A stretch of DNA of 64,000 nucleotides from Patescibacteria group bacterium (GTDB lineage: Bacteria; Patescibacteriota; Patescibacteriia; 2-12-FULL-60-25): contig JAQTXZ010000001.1 of NCBI GenBank assembly GCA_028688515.1, forward strand, positions 434,001 to 498,000, in the 5' to 3' direction. Below the pieces are notes generated by a model. That model did not search any database and had not been told where the DNA came from. It saw only the letters and a program-made list of their open reading frames with translations. This document shows, one piece after another, positions 968 to 50,970 of the stretch (position 1 is the first letter of the stretch; the number at the start of each line of letters is the position of its first letter). The translations under genes were made by a program, and so were the position numbers.

Positions 968-1075
968 CCAATAACCAAAAAACAATAACCAATCAGCGGA
1001 CATCGTGTCGTGCCGATTATTGGATTCTTGGTCAATTGTATTATTAATTGGTTATTGAAATCTTGGTTATTGTTT
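968..1075. repeat. Spacer made of AATAACCAA-type words
   Basis: The spacer before cysS contains several copies of CAATAACCAA and its complement TTGGTTATTG in both orientations. The same word occurs before the gene at 3740 and, in frame, inside dnaX (8950-9010). Confidence 0.7.
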
Positions 1076-3647: not shown

Positions 3648-3739
3648 CTAGTAAGTGACAATAATCAAAGCACAATCTCCAAACTTCCAGAACGTTAATT
3701 GATTATTGGTACTTGGTTATTGGTTATTCAACCTTTAGT

Positions 3740-7808: not shown

Positions 7809-9446
7809 ATGCCAAATCTCAGCCGTACTTACAGACCCTCAAAGTTCTCGGAAATTTGCGGGCAGACCGGAGTGACTGAGATATTGCGCAAAGAGGTTGA
7901 GCAACAAAAACTGGGTCATGCTTATCTTTTTTCTGGTCCGCGAGGCGTGGGAAAGACAACTGCAGCGCGCATTTTTGCAAAAGCGGTCAACTGCACGGAG
8001 CAAAAGGACGGGGAGCCGTGCCAAAAATGCAAATCTTGCGAGAACGTAACAAAGGGCAGCATTGACGTGATAGAAATGGACGCCGCTTCCAACACCGGCG
8101 TGGATAATGTGCGTGAGGCGATCGTTGAACATGTCAGATTTGTGCCTTCAGAACTTAAATACAAAGTTTACATCATTGACGAAGCGCACATGCTTTCGAC
8201 CTCGGCATGGAACGCTTTACTCAAAACAATCGAAGAACCGCCGGAACATGCGATGTTCATCTTTGCCACGACAGAGAAGCACAAAGTCCCGGCAACCATT
8301 GTCTCGCGCTGCCAGCGTTTTGATTTTAGGCGCATTTCTTCCGACGACATCGTCACAAGGCTAAAAGAACTGACGGAAAAGGAAGGCTATAAAGTCGAGC
8401 ATGAAATTTACGCATCGATTGCCACGAAATCAGAAGGTTGTTTACGCGATGCGGAAAATTTGCTCGGCCAGCTTTTTAGTTTAGGCGAGAAACACATCAC
8501 AAAGGACATCGCATCACTGGTCATCCCGCAATCGCAGTTGCCTATGGCCGTTGATTTGCTAACGCTTGCCGCAAAAAGAGACAGCTCGTCTGCATTACAA
8601 AAAATTCAAGATCTGGAACAAGAAGGCGCAGCATTCCTGCCGCTCTTCGACGACCTGATTGCCGCTGTCCGGTCTCTCATGCTCGCAACGTCAGTCGCGA
8701 GAGAGGCGGAGGCTCTTAAATCCGGCGAGGAAAGTTCCAAAGCTCTCGCGACGCTGATCGGTAAGTTTGAGGAAGGTGAGCTATTAAACATCTCTCTCAC
8801 CCTCATGGAACGCCGCAAAGAGGCAAAACAAGGACTGGATCCCAGATTTGCACTGGAGATGGCGATGGTGGCGATAACGGTTGGGGCTACAAGAACGGAC
8901 CACGCGGATAAGGGCGGACCAAGCGGACAGAACGGAACGGGTGGACAGAATAACAATAACCAAGCACCAATAACCAAAGAAACATCAATAACCAATAAAC
9001 CAATAACCAAACAAGAACAAACCAACGAAGGTTCCTCCGCCTCGCCGCGCCCGCCTGCATACGAAGTTGGCGGCGGGTCTGCCGTCTCTAGTCTGTCGTC
9101 TTTTAGCATCAACGATGTCTACCTCTGGTGGCCAAAATTGCTGGCTGCGCTAGAGAACAACAAATCCCTACTTTTTATTCTCAAACTTTGCAAGCCGTGC
9201 GAAATTAAAGAATCTACGATCATTCTAAATTTTCAGTATCCTTATCATCAGCAAACGATTTTGAAGAATCAGAAAAATAAACTTTTGGTGGAAAATACGC
9301 TACGCGAAGTCTCTGGCCACAATGATTTGATGATCGACGGCCGCGTTGGAAGCGCCCAGGACGGTAGCTCACCTGCTCAGCCAATCCAAAACAAAGACAC
9401 CGTCACCCGCCTGTTGGACGCCTTTGGCGGGCAGGTGATTGCTTGA
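7809..9446 (+). CDS. dnaX: DNA polymerase III subunit gamma/tau
   Basis: Clamp-loader ATPase of the replisome. The N-terminus has Walker A GPRGVGKT (43-50), the four zinc cysteines C62, C71, C74 and C77, Walker B IIDEAHML, sensor 1 FATTEKHK and the arginine-finger region SRCQRFDF. The clamp-loader lid and collar domain follow to about 370. The linker at about 375-405 (Asn/Gln/Thr-rich) is encoded by repeats of the intergenic word AATAACCAA. The C-terminal ~120 residues resemble a tau-like domain. No A-rich slippery site for an E. coli-type frameshift was seen. The stop codon overlaps the promoter of tRNA-Gln. Confidence 0.95.
   Translation: MPNLSRTYRPSKFSEICGQTGVTEILRKEVEQQKLGHAYLFSGPRGVGKTTAARIFAKAVNCTEQKDGEPCQKCKSCENVTKGSIDVIEMDAASNTGVDNVREAIVEHVRFVPSELKYKVYIIDEAHMLSTSAWNALLKTIEEPPEHAMFIFATTEKHKVPATIVSRCQRFDFRRISSDDIVTRLKELTEKEGYKVEHEIYASIATKSEGCLRDAENLLGQLFSLGEKHITKDIASLVIPQSQLPMAVDLLTLAAKRDSSSALQKIQDLEQEGAAFLPLFDDLIAAVRSLMLATSVAREAEALKSGEESSKALATLIGKFEEGELLNISLTLMERRKEAKQGLDPRFALEMAMVAITVGATRTDHADKGGPSGQNGTGGQNNNNQAPITKETSITNKPITKQEQTNEGSSASPRPPAYEVGGGSAVSSLSSFSINDVYLWWPKLLAALENNKSLLFILKLCKPCEIKESTIILNFQYPYHQQTILKNQKNKLLVENTLREVSGHNDLMIDGRVGSAQDGSSPAQPIQNKDTVTRLLDAFGGQVIA
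8950..9030 (+). repeat. In-frame AATAACCAA repeat tract inside dnaX
   Basis: Four copies of (C)AATAACCAA(A) occur within about 60 bases and encode the linker between the ATPase part and the C-terminal domain of DnaX. The same word makes up the spacers at 968-1075 and 3690-3730. Confidence 0.75.
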
Positions 9447-14014: not shown

Positions 14015-14563
14015 ATGCACCCCATCCTCACCCTCGTAGGCCCCTCCGGCTCGGGCAAGTCGACCTTGATTAAAGCGTTGATTGCCAAATATCCTGATCG
14101 CGTGGAAATCACGCGGTCGTTGACGACTCGGCCGAAAAGAAACGAGGAGGACGATTTGTTTTACACTTTCACGACGCCGGAAGACATTAAGCGGCGGCAA
14201 GCGGAGGGCAAGCTGACGCATTATGCGGAATATGCGGGGAATTTGTATGCCACGGACAGGGAAGAGCTGACAAAAATCTTGAATCACAAAATTGCCATCG
14301 CCGCGCTGGTGGAAGACGGCGTGCGATCTTTGCGCAAAGCGGGATTTGAGGTGGTGGTGATCAAAATTAGACCACAGACAACAGACAACAGACGACAGGA
14401 GTTGGAAGTTAGAGGTGATGAGGAGAGGCGACGAAAGGCGGACCGAGAACGCGCGCAGACAGATCTTGAGGCGGATTATGAAATTGTGAATTCGTTTGAA
14501 ACGGGAGGACTTGAAAGAGCAATCGGTGAATTGGAAGAAATAATTGAAGAACTGACGAATTAA
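14015..14563 (+). CDS. gmk: Guanylate kinase
   Basis: Phosphorylates GMP to GDP with ATP. The P-loop is GPSGSGKST (about 9-17), followed by the GMP-binding region TRSLTTRPKRNEE and a tyrosine-rich segment HYAEYAGNLYAT. The length of 182 residues is slightly short for the family. Residues about 119-133 (PQTTDNRRQELEVRG) are encoded by an ACAGACAAC-type repeat (14371-14400), like the repeat words seen in spacers. The gene begins 2 bp after the DpnI-like gene, so the accessory cassette may drive its transcription. Confidence 0.92.
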   Translation: MHPILTLVGPSGSGKSTLIKALIAKYPDRVEITRSLTTRPKRNEEDDLFYTFTTPEDIKRRQAEGKLTHYAEYAGNLYATDREELTKILNHKIAIAALVEDGVRSLRKAGFEVVVIKIRPQTTDNRRQELEVRGDEERRRKADRERAQTDLEADYEIVNSFETGGLERAIGELEEIIEELTN

Positions 14564-14620
14564 TTCAAAATTCAAAAAGCAAAATTCAAAATGGCGGTGA
14601 GAATTTTGAATTTTGAATTA

Positions 14621-15372: not shown

Positions 15373-16671
15373 ATGCATTTAACCTATTTAGACGCCAACA
15401 TGCGCGCAGACCTTTCTGCGACTGAAAAAATCAGCCCGCAAGTTTTGCGCGAGGCGCACGAGGCCGTGGTGCAGCTGCATGAGGAAAAGGAGCAGGGTTG
15501 GCTGGATGTTTTGGATGATGCGGAGTATTTGCAATCAATAAACTCTGCGGTCAAACAATTTTCAAAATACAAAAATTGCCTGGTCATCGGCATCGGCGGC
15601 TCCGACCTCGGCACCCGCGCCTTGCTCGAGGCATTGCAACGTGCGACGTGCGACGTGCGACGTGCGACGACTCTTTGGTTCTCCGGCGACACAACCGACC
15701 CCGAGGCAATCGCGGCGGTTTTAGACGAGATACCGTGGAAGCAGACGTGCATTAACATCATCAGCAAATCAGGCGGAACGCTGGAGACGATGTCCGTATT
15801 TTTTGAAGCAAAACGCAGGCTCGAGAAGGCTGTTGGCGCAAAGCAAGCAGCAGCCAGGATCATCTGCACGACAGATTCGGAAAAGGGGACGCTTAGGGAA
15901 ATGGCGCAGGGCAAGGGGTATGCAACGCTGACCGTGCCGGAAAATATTGGCGGCAGATTTTCTGTTTTAACGGCTGTCGGACTTTTTCCGCTGGCGCTGG
16001 CGGGAGTCAACACCAAAGATTTGCTGAAAGGCGCGATAGAGATGCGCGATGATTGGCTTGAGGCGCCCGGAGCATCGCATCCGGCGGACAGATTTGCGGC
16101 ATGGCAGGCTGCGCACGAAATGCGCAAGCACAGAAACATTCACGTGCTGTTTACGTACGCATCTTATTTGCGCGGAATATCAAACTGGTGGAGACAGCTT
16201 TGGGCGGAATCTTTGGGCAAAGCGCAGCTTTTAAACGGCAGGCCGAACGTTTACGGCCCAACTCCAGTCGCATCCATCGGCCCCACGGATCAACACTCGC
16301 AGATGCAGCTTTATCACGAAGGTCCTGACAATAAAATCTTTACTTTCATCACCGTAGATAATTTGCGCGCAAAACTTAAAGTGCCGACAAGCGCAAAAAA
16401 TTATGAATTAACAGCTTACATGTCCGGTCTGTCTTTTGCGGAGCTGCTAAATGCCGAAGCGACCGGTTCCATACAAGCGCTGGCAGAGGCGGATCGCCCT
16501 GTCGGTCAAATCAAGCTAAACAAGATAGATGCGCAAGCGCTCGGATCGCTGATTTGTTTTTTTGAGATAGCAACCGCAGTGGCCGGGCAACTGTACGGCA
16601 TCAACGCGTTTGACCAGCCCGGCGTGGAAGCATCCAAGAAAAAGACCAAGGAGATCTTGGCAAAAATCTAA
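15373..16671 (+). CDS. pgi: Glucose-6-phosphate isomerase
   Basis: Interconverts glucose-6-phosphate and fructose-6-phosphate. The two SIS-type sugar phosphate sites are visible as IGIGGSDLGTRALLEAL (about 73-89) and SKSGGTLETMS, followed by the active-site block GPTDQHSQMQLYHEGP. The length of 432 residues fits the short bacterial type. A four-fold tandem repeat of GTGCGAC (15641-15668) sits inside the gene and encodes ATCDVRRAT right after the first motif. The gene stands alone with an extended -10 promoter. Confidence 0.95.
   Translation: MHLTYLDANMRADLSATEKISPQVLREAHEAVVQLHEEKEQGWLDVLDDAEYLQSINSAVKQFSKYKNCLVIGIGGSDLGTRALLEALQRATCDVRRATTLWFSGDTTDPEAIAAVLDEIPWKQTCINIISKSGGTLETMSVFFEAKRRLEKAVGAKQAAARIICTTDSEKGTLREMAQGKGYATLTVPENIGGRFSVLTAVGLFPLALAGVNTKDLLKGAIEMRDDWLEAPGASHPADRFAAWQAAHEMRKHRNIHVLFTYASYLRGISNWWRQLWAESLGKAQLLNGRPNVYGPTPVASIGPTDQHSQMQLYHEGPDNKIFTFITVDNLRAKLKVPTSAKNYELTAYMSGLSFAELLNAEATGSIQALAEADRPVGQIKLNKIDAQALGSLICFFEIATAVAGQLYGINAFDQPGVEASKKKTKEILAKI
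15641..15668 (+). repeat. Tandem 7-mer (GTGCGAC)x4 inside pgi
   Basis: Four perfect copies of a 7-bp unit lie in the coding region of pgi. Because 7 is not a multiple of 3, a gain or loss of one unit would shift the frame. Confidence 0.9.
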
Positions 16672-16836: not shown

Positions 16837-16893
16837 GTTGAAATGACAGAAAAAATTCATAATTCTTAATTCATAATTCTTAATTGAAAACAT

Positions 16894-17229: not shown

Positions 17230-17241
17230 TTGTTACATGCT

Positions 17242-17277
17242 AAAAGTAGAGACGTTGCATGCAACGTCTCTACTTTT
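17242..17277. terminator. Bidirectional terminator, 36-bp perfect palindrome
   Basis: AAAAGTAGAGACGTTGCA is followed directly by its exact complement, ending in a T run. It lies between the convergent YtxH-like and clpB genes and can serve both strands. Confidence 0.9.
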
Positions 17278-17291
17278 TTATTGCATGTATT

Positions 17292-22529: not shown

Positions 22530-22652
22530 AGCATAACTCACCCTGCCCTCTCTTACCCAAGAGAGGGTTCTGCCGGATACTGAATCGCTCAACAACACGA
22601 GGATGATGAGGTTCTCTCCCTTGGGTAAGGGAGAGCTAGAGTGAGTTAGGCT
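22530..22652. repeat. Palindromic MITE-like element, copy 2
   Basis: Its ends are AGCATAACTCAC (22530-22541) and GTGAGTTAGGCT (22641-22652), with one mismatch between the arms. The core blocks CCCTCTCTTACCCAAGAGAG, ACACGAGGATGATG and CTTGGGTAAGGGAGAG are shared with copy 1. It lies between the divergent lipoprotein and rsmI genes and extends the lipoprotein frame upstream by 69 spurious codons. Confidence 0.85.
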
Positions 22653-22703: not shown

Positions 22704-23387
22704 ATGCAAGGCAGTTTATATATTGTTGCGACGCCGATCGGCAATCTTAAGGACCTGACGATTCGCGCCAAAGAAACGCTCGAGTCGGTAGACGTTGTGG
22801 TCTGCGAAGATACTCGCGTCACCTCCAAGTTAATGGCGTCAATTGGCGCCAAGAAGACACTGCTTGCCATCAACCAACATGCTGACGATAAACGTCTGTC
22901 GTCTGTCGTCTCTCGTCTTTTAAAGGGCGAAAATATCGCCTATGTTTCGGACGCGGGAACTCCGGGTGTTAACGATCCGGGCGGCAAACTCGTAGAAGAA
23001 GCTCTAAAAGAGGGGATAACGGTCGTCCCGGTCCCTGGCGCTTCGGCTTTAACCGCCGCGATTTCGGTCTGCGCTTTTCCGATGGAACGCTTTACTTATT
23101 TGGGTTTTGCTCCTCACAAAAAAGGACGCCAAACTTTTTTTAAAGAAATTGCCGAGCGCGAAGATGCATCTATCTTTTTTGAATCAACGCATCGCTTGCT
23201 CAAAGCTCTTGAGTCGCTGACAGAGGTCTTGGGCGAAAAACGTCTCGTTTTTGTCGGACGCGAACTGACGAAGCTGCATGAAACTCTTTACCGCGGTACA
23301 GCCTCGGAAGTTTTAGACGCAATCAAGGCGACAAGCGACAAAGGAGAAGCGGTGATCGTCATCGCGCCGAAGAAATATTATGAATAA
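22704..23387 (+). CDS. rsmI: 16S rRNA 2'-O-ribose C1402 methyltransferase
   Basis: SAM-dependent methyltransferase of the tetrapyrrole-methylase fold that modifies C1402 in the 30S decoding centre. Visible motifs: LYIVATPIGNLKDLT at the N-terminus, VVCEDTRVTSKL, and the signature YVSDAGTPGVNDPG, followed by VPVPGASALTAA. The 227 residues lack the extra C-terminal domain of longer RsmI proteins. Part of the helix before the signature is encoded by a GTCTGTC-type repeat (22891-22920) without changing the length. First gene of a tight run up to 26541. Confidence 0.93.
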   Translation: MQGSLYIVATPIGNLKDLTIRAKETLESVDVVVCEDTRVTSKLMASIGAKKTLLAINQHADDKRLSSVVSRLLKGENIAYVSDAGTPGVNDPGGKLVEEALKEGITVVPVPGASALTAAISVCAFPMERFTYLGFAPHKKGRQTFFKEIAEREDASIFFESTHRLLKALESLTEVLGEKRLVFVGRELTKLHETLYRGTASEVLDAIKATSDKGEAVIVIAPKKYYE

Positions 23388-26635: not shown

Positions 26636-28279
26636 ATGAAAAACAAATTTTACGTAACAACTCCAATCTATTACGTCAACGACAAACCGCATATCGGTTC
26701 GACTTATACGACCGTTGTGGCGGATGCTTTGGCGCGAGCGCATCGCTTACGCGGAGTACCGACGATGTTTTTGACGGGCACGGATGAGAACAGCCAAAAA
26801 AACGTCGAGGCCGCGGAAAAAGCGGGGGAGAAAGATTTGCAAAAATATTTGGACAGCATGGCGCAAATCTGGTCGCAAACATGGAAGGAGCTTGGAATCA
26901 GCTTCGATGATTTTATACGCACGACAGAGGAGCGCCATCACAAAGCGGTTGAAAGATTTTGGAAGGCAGTAGAAAAATCCGGCGATATTTATAAAAAAGA
27001 ATACGAACGTTCTTACTGCGTCGGTTGTGAAGAGTTTAAAACTCCATTCGAGGTCAAGGACGGCCGCTGTCCGTTGCATCCAAACAAAGAATTGCAAATC
27101 GTGCAGGAAGAAAATTATTTTTTTCGCGCATCGGCTTACAAAGACGAACTGCTTAAACTCTATCATGAACATCCGGAATTCATTCAGCCTGTCAGCAGGC
27201 TGAATGAAACGCGCAATTACGTTAAAGACGCATTTGAAGATTTTTCCATTTCGCGCGAAGCCAAAAAACTTTCGTGCGGCATTCCGGTGCCCGGTGATGA
27301 TTCGCAGCGCATTTATGTTTGGTTTGACGCGCTTATCAACTACATGTCCGCGGTCGGTTACGGCACGGACGACAAAATGTTTGCCAAGTGGTGGCCCGCG
27401 ACTTTACATCTTGTGGGAAAAGACATCATCAAGTTTCACTGCGCCCTTTGGCCTGCGATGATAATGAGCGCCGCCAAGTCTGACGAGCTACTTCGCAATG
27501 AAGATGAAAGTCCAAAACTTCCGGAACATGTTTTCGCGCATGGCTTTTTCACCATCAACGGACAAAAAATCAGCAAATCGCTGGGCAATGCCATTGATCC
27601 GCTGGATTTGGTCAAAGAATATCCAATAGACGCAATTCGTTACTTTTTGTTGCGCGAAATTACTTTTGGCGAAGACGGAGACTTCTCGCTTGCTCGTCTA
27701 GCCGAACGCTATAACGCCGATCTAGGCAACACCTTCGGTAACCTCGTCAACCGCGCCATCTCGATGAGCAGAAAATACTTCGACAATAAAGTGCCATCTC
27801 TTGCTTCCGGCATTGAATCGACATTCGATATTCAGCGTAGCGGACATTCAGCGCAGCAGACATTTGATGGTCCTATTTCCTGGGGCGGCAAAGATGCAGT
27901 CGACACGCTCTGGCAATCAGTTGACCAGTACATCGAGTCAAACAGACTCGATCTTGCACTTGAGACAATCTGGGGAGGGGAAGGTTGCTCGCTCATCGTC
28001 GCCAACAGACTCGTCGAAGAGACTAAGCCATTCAAACTCATCAAAGAAAACCCCGAACAAGCCGCCATTGTCTTATACACGTTGCTGGAAGCTTGTCGTC
28101 ATTTTGCATGGATGATCGAGCCTATAATGCCAAACATCGCAGAAGAAATCATACGACAGCTTGGCCAAGACCCAATTGCCGAACGCAAACAGGGGATTAA
28201 ATACCTCCAATCCTGGGGCGGCCTCAAACCCGGTTCTGAACTGCCTGAACCTAAGATTTTGTTTCCGAGGAATGCATAA
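26636..28279 (+). CDS. metG: Methionyl-tRNA synthetase
   Basis: Class I synthetase that charges tRNA-Met. HIGH-type motif PHIGSTYT, one zinc knuckle (CVGCEEF and CPLHP), the family block IYVWFDALINY and the KMSKS-type NGQKISKS are all present. ATG 26636 gives the normal start MKNKFYVTTPIYYVN; the frame open from 26600 covers the promoter. The 547 residues lack a C-terminal tRNA-binding EMAP domain. Between SLASGIES and the following anticodon-binding helices there is an insert encoded by the spacer repeat TTCGATATTCAGCGTAGC (27819-27868). Confidence 0.96.
   Translation: MKNKFYVTTPIYYVNDKPHIGSTYTTVVADALARAHRLRGVPTMFLTGTDENSQKNVEAAEKAGEKDLQKYLDSMAQIWSQTWKELGISFDDFIRTTEERHHKAVERFWKAVEKSGDIYKKEYERSYCVGCEEFKTPFEVKDGRCPLHPNKELQIVQEENYFFRASAYKDELLKLYHEHPEFIQPVSRLNETRNYVKDAFEDFSISREAKKLSCGIPVPGDDSQRIYVWFDALINYMSAVGYGTDDKMFAKWWPATLHLVGKDIIKFHCALWPAMIMSAAKSDELLRNEDESPKLPEHVFAHGFFTINGQKISKSLGNAIDPLDLVKEYPIDAIRYFLLREITFGEDGDFSLARLAERYNADLGNTFGNLVNRAISMSRKYFDNKVPSLASGIESTFDIQRSGHSAQQTFDGPISWGGKDAVDTLWQSVDQYIESNRLDLALETIWGGEGCSLIVANRLVEETKPFKLIKENPEQAAIVLYTLLEACRHFAWMIEPIMPNIAEEIIRQLGQDPIAERKQGIKYLQSWGGLKPGSELPEPKILFPRNA
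27819..27868 (+). repeat. In-frame copy of the ATATTCAGCG spacer repeat inside metG
   Basis: At least 28 consecutive bases starting TCGATATTCAGCG are identical to the intergenic spacer before atpD (35691 onward). Here the repeat is read as [16 protein letters not shown]. Confidence 0.9.
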
Positions 28280-28320
28280 TGTGCTAAATTGTTAATTGTT
28301 CATTGTTAATGTTAATTGTT

Positions 28321-28797
28321 ATGCTCCTCTTTAACATCATTTTAATACTTGCCCTGCTGGGTTTTATCGGGTCCGGACTTAAGGATGGTTTTATTTACGC
28401 ACTTGGACGCATCGTGGGAGCGGTTGTTGGATTTTTGATAGCAAAAACTTTTTATATCGAAGCGTCGGTCATCCTCTCTCCGTTTTTGCCGAGCAACTGG
28501 GCGCGAATTTTCGCGTTTTTGATCATCTTCATACTGGCCACTCGCGTGATGGGTTGGATTTTTAAGGCTTTGGACAAAACATTTAACTTTATCGCCGTCA
28601 TTCCTTTTCTCAAATCAATCAACCACATACTCGGAGGATTTTTGGGATTTTTGGAAGGCATGATTGTCATCGGCGGCTTGATTTGGTTCTTCAAAACTTT
28701 TAACATCATCCCGTCAGCAATGACGTATATCAACGGTTCGTTCGTGGCCGGATGGATTTACGGAGCGTTTACGAAGGTGCTGGGGCTGCTACTTTAA
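28321..28797 (+). CDS. CvpA-like membrane protein
   Basis: 158 residues with four membrane helices. The N-terminal FNIILILALLGFIGSGLKDGF and the Gly-rich segment HILGGFLGFLEGMIVIGGL fit the CvpA (colicin V production) family, whose role in the cell envelope is poorly defined. The frame opens at 28303 but the first codons are the spacer word TTAATTGTT, so ATG 28321 is preferred. It stands alone, bounded by repeat-word spacers on both sides. Confidence 0.78.
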   Translation: MLLFNIILILALLGFIGSGLKDGFIYALGRIVGAVVGFLIAKTFYIEASVILSPFLPSNWARIFAFLIIFILATRVMGWIFKALDKTFNFIAVIPFLKSINHILGGFLGFLEGMIVIGGLIWFFKTFNIIPSAMTYINGSFVAGWIYGAFTKVLGLLL

Positions 28798-28863
28798 CTG
28801 ACAACTTACAACTGACAACTTACAAGAGCAACTAAGTGACTCTTGTAAGTTGTAAGTTGTCAG
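28798..28863. repeat. Palindromic ACAACTTACAAG-type spacer, likely terminator
   Basis: CTGACAACTTAC... and its inverse ...GTAAGTTGTCAG pair over about 25 bp, interrupted by a loop CAACTAAGTGA. It starts directly at the stop codon of the CvpA-like gene. A related copy follows uvrB (46494-46590). Confidence 0.75.
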
Positions 28864-28874
28864 TTTCCCGTATT

Positions 28875-29744
28875 ATGTTAATCGACACCCACTCCCATCT
28901 CCATTTCCGCAAATACGACGAAGACAGAAACGAGGTTCATGCGCGCATGGCCGAGTTTGGCGTTAAGACGATCACCATCGGAACTGCGATGAATACAAGC
29001 CGCGGCGCTGTTGAATACGCCGATAGTCATGCGGATACTTGGGCGTCTGTCGGTTATCATCCGGAGCATGTGACGAGCGATTTTGAAGACGATGATGAAA
29101 TTGGCGTGCTGGACGAACAATTTGATGCGGAAAAACTTGAACGAATCGCGGCTTCGTCGCCGCGCGTAATTGCGATCGGCGAAGTCGGGCTCGACTATCA
29201 TTATTTTAATGAATCGGGAAAGATGAAGTCCGGACTAACAATCGAGGGCGCAAAACTGAATCAAAAAAACATTTTTCTTCAACAAGTCTCCTTGGCGCGA
29301 AAACTCAACAAGACACTAATCGTCCACGTCCGCGACGCCGCCGCCGACATGCTTAGCATCCTCACCGATCACCGAAATTCGAATCCCGAAACCCGAATCG
29401 TCATCCACGGGTTTTCTGAAAAATGGGAAACAGCGCAAAAGTATTTGGATCTTGGGTGTTACATCGGCATCGGCGGGATTGTGACGTTTAAACCGCGCAA
29501 AGAGACCTTGCCCGAGGACACGTTGACGTCTATCGCGCAAAAAATGCCGCTCGATCGTCTTTTGCTTGAAACAGATGCGCCGTGGCTTGCGCCTGTTCCA
29601 GTCCGCGGAACGAGAAACGAACCGACATACGTTCGCCATGTTGCGGAATTTGTCGCGCGGGCAAGGGGAATATCGCTTCAAGAGATTTCCGATGTGACGA
29701 CGAAAAATGCGCAAAAATGTTTTAACTGCGATTTTGGTTTTTGA
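28875..29744 (+). CDS. tatD: TatD-family metal-dependent deoxyribonuclease
   Basis: 289 residues from ATG 28875 (MLIDTHSHLHF). Metal ligands of the TatD amidohydrolase fold are visible: H6 and H8, the glutamate in IGEVGLDYH, histidines in LIVHVRDA and VIHGFSEK, and the aspartate in LLLETDAPWL. Members are 3'-5' exonucleases or DNases in repair and DNA degradation. The upstream frame extension to 28836 is encoded by the palindromic spacer. The loop before IVIHGF is encoded by ACCGATCACCGAAA-type words that also occur in the spacer at 37134-37205. Confidence 0.92.
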   Translation: MLIDTHSHLHFRKYDEDRNEVHARMAEFGVKTITIGTAMNTSRGAVEYADSHADTWASVGYHPEHVTSDFEDDDEIGVLDEQFDAEKLERIAASSPRVIAIGEVGLDYHYFNESGKMKSGLTIEGAKLNQKNIFLQQVSLARKLNKTLIVHVRDAAADMLSILTDHRNSNPETRIVIHGFSEKWETAQKYLDLGCYIGIGGIVTFKPRKETLPEDTLTSIAQKMPLDRLLLETDAPWLAPVPVRGTRNEPTYVRHVAEFVARARGISLQEISDVTTKNAQKCFNCDFGF

Positions 29745-30351: not shown

Positions 30352-30681
30352 ATGCAAATCGAGACAAACCAGCCAAAAAAAGACACACCAAAGGCTGTGG
30401 ATAAAAACAGCATGTCTTTAGGACAAGCATTTAGTCTAGCTTGGGAATTGGGCTATCTTATGGCAATTCCGCTGATCCTTTTTGCACTTGGCGGCCGTCT
30501 GCTCGATAAATATCTGAATACTTCACCGGCTTTCCTGATGCTCGGCATAGTCAGCTCCATCATCGTGTCATCGATCTTGGTCGCCCTAAAAGCAACAAAG
30601 ATCATCAGCGGCATTACAAAAGGGGTGGATAATCGCGTAAGCAAGGATAACAAAACGGATCATGAAAACGACATCAAATAA
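30352..30681 (+). CDS. ATP synthase accessory subunit I (AtpI/AtpZ-like)
   Basis: 109 residues with two membrane helices (about 33-50 and 63-82) and charged tails. The pattern LGYLMAIPLILFALGGRLLDKYLNTSP matches the F0F1 subunit I/AtpZ family that precedes atpB in many operons and is thought to help assemble the c-ring or handle Mg2+. The position as first gene after the operon promoter supports this. Confidence 0.8.
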   Translation: MQIETNQPKKDTPKAVDKNSMSLGQAFSLAWELGYLMAIPLILFALGGRLLDKYLNTSPAFLMLGIVSSIIVSSILVALKATKIISGITKGVDNRVSKDNKTDHENDIK

Positions 30682-30720
30682 TTTGGCATTTGAGATTTGG
30701 GATTTGTAATTAATAAAACT

Positions 30721-31968: not shown

Positions 31969-32069
31969 TCGTTTCGACGTCAGTCACCGGTCGTCATCGA
32001 AAGATACGATCGGACTCGGGTGCCGAACCCTTTGTTACATGTTATATGTTATGTGTTACGTGAAATTAT

Positions 32070-33118: not shown

Positions 33119-34657
33119 ATGAAATATATGGCAAACACCACAAATGCAACCGCAGCGGCAAAGATCGCCGAACAATTGACGGCCAAAATACAATCCTTCA
33201 AACCGGAGAACTCTACGGAAGAAATCGGTTTGGTGCGCGAGGTAGGCGATGGCATCGCATCCATCACGGGCTTGAAACACGCCAAGTCGATGGAAATGTT
33301 GACTTTTGAGGACGGCTCAATGGGAGTCGCTCTTAACTTGGAAGCTGATCGCGTCGGCGCAATGGTGCTGGGCGACGTTACAGGTATCAAAACAGGACAG
33401 ACCGTACACGGCACCGGAAAAGTTTTGTCTTTGCCGGTTGGAGACGGAGTTTTGGGTCGCGTGCTCGATCCGCTCGGCAAACCGCTCGACGGAAAAGAAA
33501 AATACGCAGCCAAAAAAGAATACCCGATAGAAAAAATCGCGCCCGGCGTTATGACCAGACACGCAGTTGACACTCCGCTCATGACCGGCATCAAAGCCAT
33601 CGACGCCCTGATCCCGATTGGACGCGGACAACGCGAGCTCATCATCGGCGATCGTCAGGTTGGTAAAACGGCAATTGCGGTCGACACGATTATCAATCAA
33701 AAAGGCAAGGGCGTTATCTGCATCTATGTTGCCATCGGGCAGAAAGAATCTAAAGTTGCAAAAATCGTTGCCAAACTAAAAGAAGCGGGAGCAATGGAAT
33801 ACACCGTCGTAGTTTCCGCCGGTGCGTCCAAACCCGCAGCTTTGCAATATATTGCGCCTTACGCAGGATGTTCCATCGGCGAGTATTTTATGGATCAAGG
33901 CAAAGACGCTTTGGTTGTTTATGACGATCTATCCAAACACGCTTGGGCTTATCGTGAAGTTTCTTTGCTCTTGCGCCGCCCGCCGGGACGCGAGGCTTAT
34001 CCCGGCGATGTGTTTTATCTCCACTCCCGTTTGCTCGAACGAGCCGTGCGTCTTTCTGATGAAAACGGCGGCGGTTCTTTAACGGCCTTGCCCATCATCG
34101 AGACACAAGCAGGCGACGTGTCCGCTTACATTCCAACCAACGTCATCTCGATTACCGACGGTCAAATTTTTTTGGAAGGCGATTTGTTTTATCGCGGCGT
34201 TCGCCCGGCTTTAAACGCAGGACTTTCCGTGTCTCGCGTCGGCGGCGATGCACAGTTCAAAATCATGAAAAAAATTGCCGGTCCGGTGCGCTTGGATTTG
34301 GCGCAATTCCGCGAACTCGAAGCTTTTTCGCAATTCGCAACTGATTTGGATGAAGCCACTCGCAAGCAAATTGAACGCGGACGCAGAACCGTCGAAGTCT
34401 TAAAACAAGGACAATACCAGCCGATGTCGCTTGGTCATCAAATAGTCGTCTTGTTTGCAGTCACAAAAGGCTTGTGCGACGAGGTGCCCGTAGACAAAGT
34501 GACTGATTGGGAATCCGGTCTGCACGAGTATTTGAATTCAGAGGCGGAAGACGTCGTCGCTGCGATCGAAGATCAAAAAGCAATGTCTCCCGAACTGGAA
34601 AAACTCATCACCAAAACAGTCGAGGACTGGAATAAAACATTTTTAACCGCAAAATAA
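33119..34657 (+). CDS. atpA: ATP synthase F1 subunit alpha
   Basis: 512 residues. Non-catalytic nucleotide-binding subunit with the P-loop GDRQVGKTA, the block [31 protein letters not shown] and the Arg-finger region [12 protein letters not shown] 33128 ([10 protein letters not shown]) is an alternative start three codons in; neither has a Shine-Dalgarno site. Confidence 0.97.
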
Positions 34658-34694
34658 TTGTTAATTGTGCATTGTTAATTGTTAATTATTCGTT

Positions 34695-35657
34695 ATGGCC
34701 GTATCAACCCGCCTCATCAAAGCGCGCATAAAATCGATAGGCAACACGCGCAAAATCACCAAAGCCATGGAACTCGTGGCTGGCGCCAAGATGCGTAAAG
34801 CCGTGCAAATGACGGTTGACAGCAGGCATTACAGCAATAACGTCAAACAAATCGTGGACGAAATCAGACAGGTCATCGATCAGCAATCTCATCCGCTTTT
34901 GTTTGGACGTAAAGTATCTGCAAAAACCGTTTTGATCATCGGCGCTTCGGACAGGGGCATGTGCGGAGGATTTAATTCGCAGCTTGTCAGAAAAAGCGTT
35001 GAGTTTATCAAAAGCAGAACGGAACCGGTTCAAGTGATAATCGTGGGTAAAAAAATTGAAAGCTCGATGCGCAGGGCGAGCGCGGAAATAATGGCGTCAT
35101 TTCCATCCATTTCAAACTCTCCATCTTTTGAACGCAGTAAGAGCATCGGCCAATTGGCTTATGACGAATTTTTGCATCACCGCGCGGATCGCGTTTTTGT
35201 CTGCTACTCGGATTTTAAAAGTGCAATTTCTCAAGTACCGACAGTCGTCCAACTGCTGCCCATTGTTCCCGAAGAAGAATTGATGGCAGCATCCGAAGAA
35301 AATTTTCAAACTGACGAAGAGGATACTAAGCCGCCTATAAACGAATACAAGCGCTTAGCCCAAGACAGAACACTGATCGCAAAAAACCCGCCCGATTACA
35401 ACATCAAATTTGAACCGACGCCGCGCTATGTACTGGATCACTTGCTTCCGCGACTGATAGACACGCGGCTTTACCAGGCGATGCTCGAATCAACGGCATC
35501 CGAACAATCCGCACGAATGATGGCCATGAGAAGCGCTACGGATTCTGCAACGGAAATGCTCGATAACCTCACCTTTACCTTTAACCAAGCAAGACAAGCC
35601 AGCATCACACGAGAGATTTCGGAAATCTCCGCCGGCAAAGCAGCACTTGAGAATTAA
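34695..35657 (+). CDS. atpG: ATP synthase F1 subunit gamma
   Basis: 320 residues. The rotor shaft is recognised by the N-terminal RLIKARIKSIGNTRKITKAMELVAGAKM pattern, the central SDRGMCGGFNS and the C-terminal ATDSATEMLDNLTFTFNQARQASITREISEI helix. It is a little longer than average because of an acidic insert near 205-225 (EEDTKPPINEYKRL). A TTAATTG-word spacer precedes it. Confidence 0.94.
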   Translation: MAVSTRLIKARIKSIGNTRKITKAMELVAGAKMRKAVQMTVDSRHYSNNVKQIVDEIRQVIDQQSHPLLFGRKVSAKTVLIIGASDRGMCGGFNSQLVRKSVEFIKSRTEPVQVIIVGKKIESSMRRASAEIMASFPSISNSPSFERSKSIGQLAYDEFLHHRADRVFVCYSDFKSAISQVPTVVQLLPIVPEEELMAASEENFQTDEEDTKPPINEYKRLAQDRTLIAKNPPDYNIKFEPTPRYVLDHLLPRLIDTRLYQAMLESTASEQSARMMAMRSATDSATEMLDNLTFTFNQARQASITREISEISAGKAALEN

Positions 35658-35678
35658 CAATTAACAAATTACAATTAA

Positions 35679-37109
<1,431 letters not shown>

Positions 37110-37110
37110 T

Positions 37111-37221
37111 TCAAAAAGAAAAAAATGGGAATCGGTGCTCGGAACTCGGTGATCGGTATTCGGCTGCCGAACCCCGAAAACCGATCACCGAAAACCGAAA
37201 CACGTAATCATTTTGAATTAT
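37111..37221. repeat. Palindromic GATCGG/CCGATC spacer before atpC
   Basis: GGTGATCGGTATTCGG and CCGAAAACCGATCACC pair as a long hairpin, and the region is flanked by the inverted words AATTCAAAA and TTTTGAATT. Related words are found at 31985-32025 and inside tatD. Confidence 0.7.
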
Positions 37222-38312: not shown

Positions 38313-38315
38313 ATA

Positions 38316-39101
38316 ATGCCAAATGACGAATGCCAAATGCCAAATCAAGAACTTGAAAATAAAACTTTCAACTGTTTTGGGTTGGTCATACATGGATATG
38401 ACCTTAATTATATTTTGACTGAAATCGCGACGCGAAGTTCGCAAGGCCTTTCCACTTGGATTGTAACCGCTAACCCGGAAATACTTTTAAAAGCAAAAAA
38501 AGATCCGGCTTATTGGGAGGTTTTGCGTCAAGCCGACTTGAGAATTGTCGACGGCCAAGGCCTGCAATTTGTAGGTATGTACAAAGGCGCGAAGCCAAAA
38601 AGAGTCGCCGGAGTCGATCTCGCAGAGGCTTTAGCAAAACTAAGCCTTGAAAAACATTGGACAGTAGCTTTACTTGGAGGTTTGAGCAACGAATCAACCG
38701 ACAAAGCCGCTTGGTATTTGCGGCGCAAATATTCTAACTTAAGCGTCTTTGCAGAAAATGGCGGCAGAGTCAGCGATGATGGCACGTTGGACGAAAAAGC
38801 CGAAGCGTCGCTCACACATCTGGTAGAGATAGAACCGGACGTCCTGCTGGTTTCTTTGGGATTCCCGAAGCAAGATCATTGGATTACACGATGCAGAAAT
38901 AGACTTCCAAAAACAAAAGTATTTATCGGCGTTGGCGGAACAGTCGACTTTTGGGCGGGAGATGCCAAACGCGCGCCAAAATGGATTCAATCAATCGGTT
39001 TTGAATGGTTTTGGCGCCTTTTGACGCAACCTTGGAGATGGAAGAGAATTTGGAATGCGTTAGTAATGTTTCCATGGCAAGTCTTGCTCGACCGAGGCTA
39101 G
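38316..39101 (+). CDS. WecG/TagA/CpsF-family glycosyltransferase
   Basis: 261 residues. Family blocks: TANPEILLKAKKDP, RIVDGQGLQFVGM with the catalytic aspartate, LLGG, LLVSLGFPKQDHWI, IGVGGTVDFWAGDAKRAPKW and a C-terminal WFWRLLTQPWRW. Members add N-acetylmannosamine(uronate) or similar sugars to polyprenyl-linked glycans at the membrane; the donor here is not known. The first ten residues (MPNDECQMPN) are encoded by the spacer word ATGCCAAATG, also seen before atpB, so the original start may lie at or after the codons for ELENKTFN. Confidence 0.9.
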   Translation: MPNDECQMPNQELENKTFNCFGLVIHGYDLNYILTEIATRSSQGLSTWIVTANPEILLKAKKDPAYWEVLRQADLRIVDGQGLQFVGMYKGAKPKRVAGVDLAEALAKLSLEKHWTVALLGGLSNESTDKAAWYLRRKYSNLSVFAENGGRVSDDGTLDEKAEASLTHLVEIEPDVLLVSLGFPKQDHWITRCRNRLPKTKVFIGVGGTVDFWAGDAKRAPKWIQSIGFEWFWRLLTQPWRWKRIWNALVMFPWQVLLDRG

Positions 39102-44341: not shown

Positions 44342-46495
44342 ATGAGTGAATTCGAATTAAAACAGCCATATAGACCGGCTGGAGATCAGCCGGAGGCGAT
44401 AAAGCAACTTACCGAACACCTTGCAAAAGGCGATAAGTTTTTGACTTTGCTCGGGGCGACCGGAACCGGCAAAACCTACACAATGGCGCATGTCATTCAA
44501 AATGTTAAGAAACCGACTCTGGTCATTGCGCATAACAAAACTCTGGCTGCGCAGCTTTGCAATGAATTTCGAGAATTTTTTCCAGATAACGCCGTAGAAT
44601 ATTTTGTTTCTTATTACGATTATTATCAGCCGGAAGCTTACATCGCAAAAAGTGACACCTACATCGAAAAAGAGGCTCAAATAAATGAAGAGATAGACCG
44701 TTTGCGCCACAGCGCTACGCAAGCTCTGCTGACCAGAAAAGACGTAATCATTTGCGCATCCGTTTCGTGTATTTACGGTTTGGGCGCGCCCGAGGCTTAC
44801 GCACTGACGACACTGCACATCGAGACGGGGAACGACATTAAACGCGAAGAGATCGTGTCGCGCTTGGTCGATATGCAATTTACCCGCACCAACGCGGATT
44901 TGGAACGCGGATCTTTTAGACTCACGGGCCAAGTTTTGGAAATCATGCCGGCTAATGAGGAAAAAATATTTCGCATTGAAACTGCCGGCGGGCACGTCGA
45001 AAGAATTTTACGGATCGATCCGGTTACTCGAAAAACTCTTTCGGAACCGCAAGAATTGTGGGTTTTTCCGGCCAAACATTTTATTACGCCAGGCCCGGAA
45101 CGCGAAAAAGCAATTAAGACGATTCGCACGGAACTAAAAGAAAGACTTGAACTATTTGAAAAGAACGGAAAGTTGTTGGAGGCCGAACGTTTGGAGAGAC
45201 GAACTAATTTTGATTTGGAGATGATCGAAAACTTGGGTTATTGCAATGGAATAGAAAATTACTCTCGCCATTTGTCAGGCCGCGCGCCGGGCGATCCGCC
45301 GGACACTCTATTTTCTTATTTTCCAAAAGACTTTTTGCTGATGATCGATGAATCGCATGTCACAATCCCGCAAATAGGCGGTATGTATGAAGGCGACAAA
45401 TCTCGCAAAGACACTTTGGTTGAACATGGATTTAGACTTCCTTCCGCCAAAGATAATCGACCTCTGACTTTCAAAGAATTTGAAGATAAAGTCAAACAAG
45501 CGGTTTTTGTTTCCGCAACGCCCGGTCCTTTTGAGTTTAAGCACTCGGCAAGCGTCGTTGAGCAGATAATCCGTCCCACTGGCTTGATAGACCCTGAAGT
45601 TATTATTCGACCCATAACGCAATCCAAACAAGAAAGTTCTAAGCACGAGCCAGATCTCTCGACTCCGTCAAACTTCGCTCGAGATGACGGAGGGGGGATG
45701 AATCAAATCGATGACTGTATTGCAAGTATCATCAAGGCAACGGCGGACGGTAATCGAACTCTTGTCACAACGCTGACAAAAAAAATGGCGGAAGATCTTA
45801 CGGAGTACTTGAAAGAAAAGAAAATCAAAGCCTGCTACTTGCATTCAGATATAAAAACAGTCGAAAGACTCGAAATTCTGTCAGACTTTAGACGCGGCAA
45901 ATATGACGCGTTGGTTGGCGTCAACTTATTGCGCGAGGGACTTGATCTTCCGGAAGTCTCACTTGTCTGTATTTTAGACGCCGACAAAGAAGGGTTTTTG
46001 CGCTCCGACACTTCGCTCATACAAACAATCGGACGTGCCGCTCGCAACGTTCAAGGTCAAGTCATTCTTTACGCCGACCATGTTACAGGCAGCATGAAGC
46101 GCGCTATCGCAGAAACCGACAGGCGTCGTAAAAAACAAGTCGCTTATAACCAAGAACATGGCATCACTCCCAAAACAATTCGTAAAGCAATCGTAGATTT
46201 ACGCGGATCGCTGGGTTTTGCTCAGGATAAAGATATTAAAGAAATTTTAAAGCTCGAACTTTCCGCCGAAACTCGTAAGCTGGAAGAAGTAATAAAGCAA
46301 AAAGAAGCGGAAATGAAGTCTGCGGCATTGGAGTTGGATTTTGAACTTGCTACAATTCTTCGCGATGAGATTGTTGTCATTAAACAAGAACTCGGAAAAA
46401 GGCAAAAGAAATCACCGTTAAAAACCATGGACGACGGGGGTAAGGCTAGCCCAAGTATCAAACGTCCGCCAAGACATGGAAGGACTCGGAACTGA
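44342..46495 (+). CDS. uvrB: Excinuclease ABC subunit B
   Basis: 717 residues. Damage-verification helicase of nucleotide excision repair. Walker A GATGTGKT (38-45), the beta-hairpin region YYDYYQPEAYIAKSDTYIEK, Walker B MIDESH, motif SDIKTVERLEIL, VGVNLLREGLDLPEVSLVCILDADKEGFLRS and QTIGRAARN, and a C-terminal UVR motif (EAEMKSAALELDFELATILRDEI). Between DPEVIIRPI and QIDDCIASI there is an insert of about 27 residues encoded by a dispersed repeat. A second repeat-like insert (GSLGFAQDK) lies before the UVR motif. Confidence 0.97.
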   Translation: MSEFELKQPYRPAGDQPEAIKQLTEHLAKGDKFLTLLGATGTGKTYTMAHVIQNVKKPTLVIAHNKTLAAQLCNEFREFFPDNAVEYFVSYYDYYQPEAYIAKSDTYIEKEAQINEEIDRLRHSATQALLTRKDVIICASVSCIYGLGAPEAYALTTLHIETGNDIKREEIVSRLVDMQFTRTNADLERGSFRLTGQVLEIMPANEEKIFRIETAGGHVERILRIDPVTRKTLSEPQELWVFPAKHFITPGPEREKAIKTIRTELKERLELFEKNGKLLEAERLERRTNFDLEMIENLGYCNGIENYSRHLSGRAPGDPPDTLFSYFPKDFLLMIDESHVTIPQIGGMYEGDKSRKDTLVEHGFRLPSAKDNRPLTFKEFEDKVKQAVFVSATPGPFEFKHSASVVEQIIRPTGLIDPEVIIRPITQSKQESSKHEPDLSTPSNFARDDGGGMNQIDDCIASIIKATADGNRTLVTTLTKKMAEDLTEYLKEKKIKACYLHSDIKTVERLEILSDFRRGKYDALVGVNLLREGLDLPEVSLVCILDADKEGFLRSDTSLIQTIGRAARNVQGQVILYADHVTGSMKRAIAETDRRRKKQVAYNQEHGITPKTIRKAIVDLRGSLGFAQDKDIKEILKLELSAETRKLEEVIKQKEAEMKSAALELDFELATILRDEIVVIKQELGKRQKKSPLKTMDDGGKASPSIKRPPRHGRTRN
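45613..45702 (+). repeat. In-frame dispersed-repeat insert inside uvrB
   Basis: The core GATCTCTCGACTCCGTCAAA and the following CGCTCGAGATGACGG closely match the right half of the spacer element at 16788-16832. Other UvrB proteins have no residues here. Confidence 0.85.
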
Positions 46496-46600
46496 CAACT
46501 TACAACTTACAAGAGTTGCTTAGTTTCTTAGTTGCTCTTGTTAGTTGTTAGTTGTCAGTTGCAAGTTATAAGTTGTAAGTTGTCAGCTACCGCTGTAACG
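46494..46600. repeat. ACAACTTACAAG-type palindromic spacer before dnaG
   Basis: CTGACAACTTACAACTTAC and several inverse copies (TTGTTAGTTGTTAGTTGTCAG, TAAGTTGTAAGTTGTCAG) fold into hairpins. Same family as 28798-28863. It may end the uvrB transcript. Confidence 0.75.
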
Positions 46601-46619
46601 TAGTGAGCGAAGTCGAACT

Positions 46620-48440
46620 ATGGAAGCTGCCGATGAGATAAAATCGCGCCTGGACATAGCAGATGTTGTAGGCGAATACTTGCAGCTCAAGCCCGCGGGC
46701 AGCGGCAGTTTTAAGGCTAACTGCCCGTTTCACCAGGAAAAAACTCCAAGTTTTTACGTTAACCGACCACGGCAATCCTGGCATTGTTTTGGCTGCAACA
46801 TTGGAGGTGACATGATTTCTTTCGTTCAACAGATAGAAGGCATGGAGTTTATGGAAGCGCTGGAGCACTTGGCGCAAAAAGCCGGCGTACAACTGCCGAG
46901 CTACAATCCGGAAACGCAGGGACTGAAAAAATGCCTGCAAGAAGTGAATGACGTTGTCGCGAAACTTATGCAACAGTACTTGATTAACGATCCGGAGGCT
47001 GCATCGGCGCGCGAATATGTTAAAAAACGCGGCATAGACGATTTAACGGCAGACCTTTGGAGGTTGGGATATGCACCGAAAGACTGGTCAAAATTTGAAA
47101 AAAAACTTTACGAAAAAGGTTTCACCGCGCAGGAACTGATACAGGCCGGGGTTGCATCTCCAAGCGAAAGAGGTCAAGGAATTTATTTTCGTTTTCGCGA
47201 GAGGCTGATGTTCCCGATCTGCGAAGCAATGGGACATATAGTCGGTTTTACAGGACGAATTTTATCGGCGGAAAAAGTAGCCAAATACGTAAACACGCCG
47301 GAAACAACACTGTATAAAAAAAGCGCCGTGCTTTACGGACTCGACAAAGCAAAAGGGGACATTAAACGCGATGATCTCGCAATCATAGTTGAAGGCAACA
47401 TGGACGCGCTTACATCGCATCAATTCGGCGTCACCAACGTCGTCGCTTCTTCCGGCACCGCATTGACTCAAGAGCAACTGACGTTGATTAAACGATATTC
47501 CAACAACATCGCAATCGCTTTTGACATGGATCCTGCGGGATTAAACGCAACTTTGCGCGGTTTGGATCTTGCAAGACAAATGGATTTTTCCATTCACGTC
47601 ATCCGTTTCGACCAAAGCCTTGCCAAAGATCCGGATGAATTGATCAGAAAAGACGTCCAACTTTGGAAGGAAGCTGTGCGCACCGCCAAACCGATCATGG
47701 ATTGGGTCTATCAGCAGGCTTTTATGCAATTTCCATCGTCTACTCCGGAAGGAAAAAAACAAATCGCACAATTCGTATTAAATGAATGTAAGCACATTTC
47801 CCATCCTGTAGAACGCGATGCGTGGGTTTCCAAACTGGCAAAAGATCTGGACGTCTCTCCGGAAGCGTTGCGGCAGACACTTTCTCAAAACGCGCAACGC
47901 GAAACCCGAAACGCAAATTTCGAAACCAAGTTCAACATTCAGCGAAGCGGACAAACAGCGAAGCGGACAAACAGCGAAGCGGACATTCGAGATTCGCGCC
48001 CCAGCACAGTAAACGAGCTAGAGGCCCGATGGCTGTCCATCGTCTTGAAAGATCCAAGCCTGTTTCATGAGATTGACATTGACTGGTCGCAAACCCCGCA
48101 TGCGGAACTTTACAAATCTTTGGTTCAAAGCTATAATTCGCGCCATCAAAACCAAACGGCGGAAGAAAATAATCCGCCCGATTTCAAAGCTCTATATTCC
48201 TTAGATAACGAGGAAACTAAACGATTGGTGGATTATTTGGTCATCTTTGCCGATCGTGAATTTACAGACCAAACAGCTGATGCCTTAAAAAGTGAGCTGA
48301 CGGCCACGGAGATTCGCCTCCACGAGCTATCGCTTAACGGACGAAGACAGCAGTTGGAACAAGAGATGCGTACAGCGGAGCGGCTCGGCGACACCGAGCG
48401 AATCAACGCCCTGCTCGAGCAATTCAAGCAACTTAAATAA
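46620..48440 (+). CDS. dnaG: DNA primase
   Basis: 606 residues. The CHC2 zinc domain (C35, H38, C56, C59), the TOPRIM core with IIVEGNMDAL and IAFDMDPAG, and a C-terminal helicase-binding-like domain are in order. A Gln/Arg/Thr-rich linker (about 425-460) is encoded by repeats of GCGAAGCGGACAAACA, the spacer family also found before atpD. The ATG at 46620 gives the normal N-terminus MEAADEIKSRLDIADVVGEY. It is followed by rpoD, the classic macromolecular-synthesis pairing. Confidence 0.96.
   Translation: MEAADEIKSRLDIADVVGEYLQLKPAGSGSFKANCPFHQEKTPSFYVNRPRQSWHCFGCNIGGDMISFVQQIEGMEFMEALEHLAQKAGVQLPSYNPETQGLKKCLQEVNDVVAKLMQQYLINDPEAASAREYVKKRGIDDLTADLWRLGYAPKDWSKFEKKLYEKGFTAQELIQAGVASPSERGQGIYFRFRERLMFPICEAMGHIVGFTGRILSAEKVAKYVNTPETTLYKKSAVLYGLDKAKGDIKRDDLAIIVEGNMDALTSHQFGVTNVVASSGTALTQEQLTLIKRYSNNIAIAFDMDPAGLNATLRGLDLARQMDFSIHVIRFDQSLAKDPDELIRKDVQLWKEAVRTAKPIMDWVYQQAFMQFPSSTPEGKKQIAQFVLNECKHISHPVERDAWVSKLAKDLDVSPEALRQTLSQNAQRETRNANFETKFNIQRSGQTAKRTNSEADIRDSRPSTVNELEARWLSIVLKDPSLFHEIDIDWSQTPHAELYKSLVQSYNSRHQNQTAEENNPPDFKALYSLDNEETKRLVDYLVIFADREFTDQTADALKSELTATEIRLHELSLNGRRQQLEQEMRTAERLGDTERINALLEQFKQLK
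47900..47998 (+). repeat. In-frame spacer repeat inside dnaG
   Basis: GAAACCCGAAACGC words are followed by CATTCAGCGAAGCGGACA and two further GCGAAGCGGACA copies. They encode the linker between the TOPRIM core and the C-terminal domain. Confidence 0.85.
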
Positions 48441-50912: not shown

Positions 50913-50960
50913 TCGGTATTCGATATCCAGCGTAGCGGATATTCGACATTCGATATTCGT
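50913..50960. repeat. ATATCCAGCG spacer repeat before tRNA-Asn
   Basis: GGTATTCGATATCCAGCG and TAGCGGATATTCGACATTCG belong to the family at 35683-35735. Here it lies in the 5' leader of a tRNA precursor. Confidence 0.8.
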
Positions 50961-50970
50961 TTCATAGTAT

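Follow-up and report, generated by a model that had tools for sequence, protein, structure and literature searches.

Dispersed heptamer arrays in the spacers and genes of a patescibacterial genome

Introduction

How does the same short stretch of DNA come to lie both in a non-coding spacer and, in frame, inside an essential gene? The question is raised by metG, which carries at 27818..27868 an in-frame insert (TTCGACATTCGATATTCAGCGTAGCGG...) encoding a 17-residue peptide in the linker ahead of the anticodon-binding domain. A first-pass annotation of this DNA had proposed that at least 28 bp of the insert recur in the spacer before atpD, and the two are indeed 88% identical over 51 nt (27818–27868 and 35684–35734), with an exact run of 30 nt. 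The related copies that it placed in dnaG (47925–47991) and in the tRNA-Asn leader (50913–50963) were also found. The locus lies in a 64-kb window (the whole stretch of DNA analyzed, part of contig 4) of a genome of 1.287 Mb that is 99% complete. The nearest relatives of its MetG belong to genomes of Patescibacteria, Parcubacteria and Candidatus Uhrbacteria, and the organism is here named Uhrbacteria.

The sample comprised the window and 20 further stretches, 459 kb in total or ~36% of the genome, and arrays were placed relative to gene models from our own ORF caller. A metagenome assembly might misplace repeats, although arrays this short are well inside read length. Arrays in the window are given on the plus strand; the hairpins and inverted pairs at 14557..14619, 28796..28865, 37127..37207 and 46484..46602 are given without strand. 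The best explanation of the whole set, to which we assign a probability of about 0.7, is that the arrays are dispersed non-coding heptamer mini-elements that recently multiplied by copying and were sorted by purifying selection.

A tandem unit of seven nucleotides

The annotation had described several families of repeated words without stating what unites them. The repeats are real, and a 7-nt tandem unit underlies nearly all of these families: most of the 53 rows returned by Tandem Repeats Finder have period 7, with unit words that include CCAATAA, AATTGTT, AACTTAC/AACTGAC, AGACAAC, TGCGACG, CGTCTGT, AATGCCA and TTCGATA. With a strict score, a word-independent scan of the 459 kb yielded 72 arrays of period 7, compared with 0, 1 and 0 at periods 5, 6 and 8; relaxing the score brought these numbers to 107 and to 0, 3 and 0, respectively. 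A second-order Markov resample, used as the control for the strict scan, contained zero period-7 arrays. The words are also far more frequent than chance, the alternative that the annotation had named against itself: with at most one mismatch, TTCGATATTCAGCG occurs 32 times genome-wide, its reversed control once.

Array length is bimodal (24–27 and 30–33 nt, mostly 3.5 or 4.5 units) with no long tail. One family adds a 16-nt unit, and its periods of 16 and 23 arise from ATTCGAC units with AGCGNAGCG inside; the copy 5′ of tRNA-Asn (50913..50963) belongs to this TTCGATA/16-mer family. By placement, 57 of the 107 arrays are intergenic, 16 lie over a gene edge and 34 (32%) are within genes. Since coding sequence makes up 84% of the sample, the density of arrays per kb is ~10 times lower in genes. 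A tandem 7-nt unit far above the neighboring periods and a dispersed, mainly intergenic placement characterize the bacterial heptanucleotide arrays of the LSSR/STRR kind, and both are found here. One or a few words per genome, which is the habit of published cases and not strictly defining, is not: 43 distinct words, some related to each other, were counted among 104 arrays.

The window illustrates this variety. Intergenic arrays are built of CCAATAA (968..993), its inverse ATTGGTT (3698..3728), AATTCAT/AATTCTT (16854..16885) and TGTTATA/TGTTACA (32033..32058). AATTGTT occupies the spacer between metG and a CvpA-like gene (28287..28321), and AATTCAA arrays form an inverted pair behind gmk (14557..14619). 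An ATTTGGG array sits directly 3′ of an AtpZ/ATPase_gene1-like gene (30681..30706), where relatives are shorter or empty.

Copies inside genes

The words that had been reported in frame within dnaX and gmk proved to be heptamer arrays. In dnaX, a CCAATAA insert (8949..9030, the array itself at 8949–9011) occupies a variable linker that is shorter in the congener G002, and in gmk a CAGACRA insert (14369..14398) encodes RPQTTDNRRQ, with 8 residues fewer in G002. Arrays beyond those reported were found in pgi (15635..15669; TGCGACG, in frame, encoding LQRATCDVRRAT, with 4–6 residues fewer in two orthologues), in an rsmI-like methylase gene (22893..22918; CGTCTGT, ungapped against the congener G004 and 3 residues longer than in G002) and in dnaG (47889–47912). 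The last forms part of a longer in-frame insert past the TOPRIM region (47889..47998), in which AACGCGA heptamers are joined to three 16-nt CAGCGAAGCGGACAAA units; the dnaG family model ends at residue 345. In the whole sample, the host genes recognized with Pfam/NCBIfam include gmk, pgi, an RsmI-type methylase, dnaG, metG, dnaX, tmk, prmC and pcrA/uvrD, and further a ClpB-like ATPase, a Mur ligase, tgt, tsaD, tsaE and several glycosyltransferases.

Alignment with orthologues, which the annotation had proposed as a check, showed that most comparable in-gene copies are absent or shorter in relatives. MetG exceeds its two nearest orthologues (G004 and G002) by ~13 residues, and the excess is 8 residues in Gmk, 4–6 in Pgi, 15 in DnaG (against G002), 5 in Tmk, 8–10 at two sites in PcrA and 8–9 in two glycosyltransferases. 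RsmI and one methyltransferase (L012) are equal or nearly equal in length to their orthologues. The annotation had further held that the inserts sit in linkers or loops and keep the frame. The reading frame is indeed preserved, and in metG the copy does fall in a linker: when MetG was modeled with AlphaFold (alignment of 17 sequences, mean pLDDT 88.7), the insert came out with low confidence (block means of 51, 58 and 68) between well-predicted helices. Two of the cited cases are otherwise. The tatD words (29362–29399) fall below the array threshold and are not an insertion, because the orthologues have an equal number of residues there. At the WecG-like gene, an AATGCCA array does cover the annotated start (38315..38345), although comparison of the spacers suggests that the true start is downstream, so that the array probably lies in the spacer and its in-frame status is doubtful. 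The copy cited at the end of a CruF-like gene was not identified.

In-gene copies differ from spacer copies in what they encode. Among in-gene heptamer units, 29 of 32 are free of stop codons on the coding strand, and where the other 3 occur the gene stays open, with a substituted unit copy within the array; 44 of the 76 intergenic arrays contain a plus-strand stop. Within genes the 16-nt unit reads sense in 25 cases and antisense in 1; between genes the ratio is 8:7. Stop-free units and sense bias match the prediction of indiscriminate insertion followed by purifying selection, and the in-gene copies behave as tolerated insertions. It is unnecessary to invoke a positive function in the proteins, and we infer that the copies are nearly neutral. 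The opposite reading, in which in-gene copies are adaptive protein segments, such as disordered linkers under positive selection, is extremely unlikely. In its favor, tandem repeats are described as creating disordered protein regions in Borg elements (PMC9879509). Against it stand the identical elements in spacers, the different vocabularies of congeners, and an in-gene share that is large only in this genome (34/107, compared with 2/14 and 2/46 in congeners).

Several in-gene sites show further detail. The prmC gene (L011, 7976–9025) encodes a protein of 349 aa, where the family model has about 253, and carries four heptamer or 16/23-mer stretches, one pair of which is separated by a 100-nt element common to a glycosyltransferase gene in L018. 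In L025 (15673–17470), the adjacent tsaE and tsaD both have ACGTACN-type heptamer inserts, and in tsaD there are also an inverted pair and, close to the start of the gene, an additional AATTAAC array. One glycosyltransferase has, in G002, a different and longer insert at the site of the heptamers. A G002 glycosyltransferase carries in frame, at a place occupied by heptamers in our genome, what looks from its peptide (TPSPSPIELSSTGEGS) like a CTCTCC/GGAGAG-type hairpin related to the ACACGAGGATGATGCGGTACTCTCTCTTGGGTAAGAGAGAGTTAGAGTGAGTTAGGCT family. In an unrelated lineage (Wildermuthbacteria, L048), the MetG linker reads FEARNPKQIQNKKLQ, which looks like a translated array of a different heptamer.

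Dispersal and local growth

Arrays share their words far more often than simulations of local origin allow: 234 word-sharing pairs were counted among 104 arrays, against a mean of 6.1 and a maximum of 19 in 500 simulations. Matches between elements extend over 40–149 nt with the cores included (182 between intergenic copies, 106 between a coding and an intergenic copy, and 54 between coding copies). The 100-nt element of prmC (L011) is in frame there and also in the glycosyltransferase gene of L018, and a clean insertion is seen in L010 at 9364. Heptanucleotide repeats have also been discussed in terms of contact with the polymerase, an idea said to come from Mrazek in 2007. Slippage alone, with each array an independent, microsatellite-like growth of a heptamer already on site, is nevertheless strongly disfavored by the word sharing and the whole-element copies, and was rejected in its pure form; the common cores and a copy number near 3.5–4.5 with no long tail argue in the same direction. 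We consider it very unlikely, even though the unit recurs in the 60-nt flanks of 40 of 107 arrays (11.6 expected; inverted partners account for part of these) and in several bacteria no other long unit is as common as the heptamer, according to two reports (PMC4679880, PMC4692102). The data support arrays that were copied into new sites and then exposed to selection.

The steps of the preferred reading can be put as follows. The elements consist of tandem heptamers, mostly of 3.5 or 4.5 units, and often form an inverted pair round a short core, which would allow a single strand to fold back as a hairpin. They appear to have multiplied recently in their own lineage through copying into new sites, as the whole-element matches suggest. 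Copies would have landed everywhere, and purifying selection would have cleared most of them from genes, so that the survivors would be spacer copies together with linker or loop copies that are in frame and carry no coding-strand stop. The birth of arrays and the matching of their arms may go back to replication errors, namely heptamer slippage and template switching between arms, a view based on the anatomy of the elements and on general knowledge of quasipalindrome correction. Such errors would let words drift while the tandem period and the pairing of the arms are kept.

Hairpins and the spacers that hold them

A reverse-complement partner within 120 nt (score at least 12) accompanies 41 of 107 arrays (~40%), compared with 11 in a control with reversed flanks; the remaining 66 arrays lack such a partner, so the hairpin is not universal. 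One hairpin class has the core AAGAG-(loop, often CTTAG)-CTCTT flanked by heptamer arms. It is represented 12 times in our sample, 8 times in the congener G008 and once in G002; a search of G004 and of 704 kb from other Patescibacteria found none. With at most 3 mismatches, the exact core occurs 15 times in this genome and in 0 of 56 relatives. In 21 core hairpins the arms are written in several heptamer words, each arm pairs far better with its own partner than when arms are mixed between hairpins, and mismatches gather at positions 7, 14 and 21; these hairpins had been chosen for complementarity, so their pairing illustrates covariation and is no proof of it.

Spacer elements tend to adjoin the upstream stop codon and to end 6–10 nt ahead of the next start. 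Arrays overlap the stop codons of atpA, atpG, cvpA and uvrB. For instance, an AATTGTT array covers the atpA stop (34655..34693) where G002 and the relative G006 are empty and G004 has CTCGTTA/CTAGTTA units. The atpG–atpD spacer (35652..35734) has an AATTAAC array over the atpG stop, fused to a TTCGATA/ATTCAGCGTAGCGGAC unit, and is empty in G002. Between atpD and atpC lies an inverted pair of TCGGTGA and CCGAAAA (37127..37207); G002 has no array there and G008 has another inverted heptamer pair. The hairpin between the CvpA-like gene and tatD (28796..28865) has AACTGAC/AACTTAC arms and the core AAGAGCAACTAAGTGACTCTT, and a hairpin of its family lies over the uvrB stop between uvrB and dnaG (46484..46602), a site at which G002 and G004 have none.

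This placement raises the question of whether spacer copies are selected as RNA hairpins, acting as bidirectional terminators or mRNA 3′ ends, with the gene copies as by-products. As a full account this is doubtful, while a terminator or mRNA-end role for spacer copies is possible. The adjacency to upstream stop codons agrees with it, as do the scarcity of arrays between divergent genes (5 of 43 spacers of at least 60 nt, against 69 of 239 others, in our own tally), the arm pairing retained across different words in the 21 hairpins, and the similar hairpins of three species in the cvpA–tatD spacer. Conversely, the hairpins that were read lack a U-tract, G004 and G006 have no array in that spacer, compact spacers offer few alternative landing sites, Rfam matches in the window are limited to 2 tRNAs, and the 21 hairpins had been picked for pairing.

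Hairpins are also the type of substrate on which Y1 (HUH) transposases act, and such an enzyme might move the elements as single strands in the manner of a REP/RAYT family. This is quite unlikely. Among genomes that have 15 or more AATT arrays, 14 of 18 show a PF01797 match, compared with 11 of 39 among those with fewer, a tally of our own that is not a clean test because the genomes are related and differ in their load of mobile elements. REP hairpins are tied to a RAYT gene; here the only match is a fragment of an IS200-like TnpA, and the 8-kb stretch round it holds no arrays. In other genomes, arrays lie 0.5–3.4 kb from Y1 genes, no nearer than background, and the array-bearing G004 and G008 have no PF01797 match. 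The fragment (L187, 3860–4240; G000:C4:29860–30240) lacks the first 36 Pfam positions, while its HUH motif and tyrosine region are readable. No mobilizing enzyme was identified from the sole Y1 match in the genome. Matches to reverse transcriptase (PF00078) showed no pattern visible by eye, the genome’s own match being a fragment with one stop. A target-site duplication of the kind used as a criterion for MITEs was not seen in comparisons with relatives too divergent for certainty, and inverted arms occur in part of the elements.

Distribution among relatives

Array density is patchy among four congeners, with 233 arrays per Mb in this genome, 6 in G002, 64 in G004 and 220 in G008, and their vocabularies are nearly disjoint (overlap 0.00–0.06). 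A single conserved repeat family across the genus was rejected on the grounds of these vocabularies and of an exact core present in 1 of 57 genomes. All 14 of the array-bearing spacers that can be compared with G002 score as array-free there, a score that overlooked one G002 hairpin, in the cvpA–tatD spacer, with a similar structure and diverged words. At this spacer, our genome, G002 and G008 share the position of the hairpin and differ in the words of both arms, a further heptamer pair is found in the relative G005, and G004 and G006 are without such an array. The atpG–atpD spacer holds a different heptamer element in each of our genome, G006 and G008, and none in G002. At both gaps, an inherited hairpin may have been rewritten, or elements may have landed repeatedly at one gap. 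Each species is represented by one genome, which hides variation within species. In the wider phylum, a perfect array of four AATTNNN units occurs at least once in 157 of 381 sampled Patescibacteria genomes (~40%), and the highest count, 111, is that of our genome.

A more radical reading is that what spreads is the architecture and not the sequence, that is, tandem 7-nt hairpins in which both arms change their words together. We hold this to be unlikely. If true, the hairpins of congeners at a given gene border would be alike in form and written in different words, and a process of arm-to-arm copying or correction in 7-nt steps would be required, possibly with a dedicated enzyme. Such a process would be active across Patescibacteria and able to put inserts into essential genes.

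Comparison with known repeats

Rickettsia palindromic elements (RPE) are palindromic, occur as one family in spacers and in frame in genes, and are tolerated in essential proteins; their families keep a sequence of about 100–150 nt. The annotation had likened the present words to them. As a functional analogy the comparison is fair, and no membership is claimed: one family is found both in spacers and in frame in genes, an inverted partner accompanies about 40% of arrays (41/107, control 11) and not the others, and one 100-nt element is shared in frame by prmC and the glycosyltransferase gene. The elements here comprise many words and not one conserved family; they share a tandem unit and an arm architecture, whereas RPE keep their sequence. 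No RPE model appeared among the NCBIfam matches listed, from a library that may not include one. Cyanobacterial STRR heptamers are degenerate tandem heptamers, mostly intergenic, which resemble our arrays by description. Proteins bearing RPE have been confirmed (PMC2635572), and the cyanobacterial STRR are mentioned beside the Xanthomonas repeats (PMC4692102).

Other phyla are already known to have heptamer arrays, in spacers as well as within genes (PMC4692102, PMC2700814, PMC4679880). In Xanthomonas, GGGAATC repeats mostly have four units, form inverted pairs and include some intragenic copies (PMC4692102); there, one G-rich word characterizes each organism, whereas our genome uses many words with 32% of arrays in genes, and here the vocabularies of congeners are nearly disjoint. 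The Geobacter metallireducens elements consist of four GGACCGG or five MTYCTGA units, and 49 copies of the four-unit family are known, some in genes and some in spacers (PMC2700814). Tandem arrays of four or five heptamers are common to both genomes, yet the passages on Geobacter give a fixed consensus, present the elements as putatively regulatory and contain no analysis of in-frame insertion (PMC2700814). In Beggiatoaceae, TAACTGA direct repeats lie in spacers, often just ahead of start codons, with few in ORFs and those mostly at protein ends (PMC4679880); this is a single word, and its in-gene cases are mostly peripheral or hypothetical proteins.

The annotation knew of no such description for the Candidate Phyla Radiation. 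In the open-access literature, no report of heptamer repeats was found for the Candidate Phyla Radiation, Patescibacteria or Uhrbacteria. Novel features here are the phylum, the number of words per genome, the share in essential genes and the shift of vocabulary from one congener to another. A small, reduced genome carries arrays in genes for replication, translation and tRNA modification, and the set can serve as a record, made by nature, of how selection has sorted insertions. Near-total change of words with the architecture kept makes the origin of bacterial heptamer repeats testable in close strains. For annotation, peptides of the QTTDDRRQTTD or IQRSGYSAKRTFD type in such proteins should be recognized as repeat-derived.

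Other dispersed elements accompany the arrays. A hairpin family with ACACGAGGATGATGCGGTACTCTCTCTTGGGTAAGAGAGAGTTAGAGTGAGTTAGGCT has copies at 2615–2672 and 22595–22652 of the window that are 91% identical, and an inverse copy near 22548–22573. A GAGACGTTGCATGCAACGTCTC hairpin lies at 17229–17292, and another species (G005) has a copy elsewhere, in its atpA–atpG spacer. The element GTCATTTCGACCGAAGCG...GTGGAGAAATC...GGAATGACA occurs in the spacers at 7623–7883 and 16672–16893 and also in G004 and L017; unlike the heptamer arrays, it looks conserved in sequence across species.
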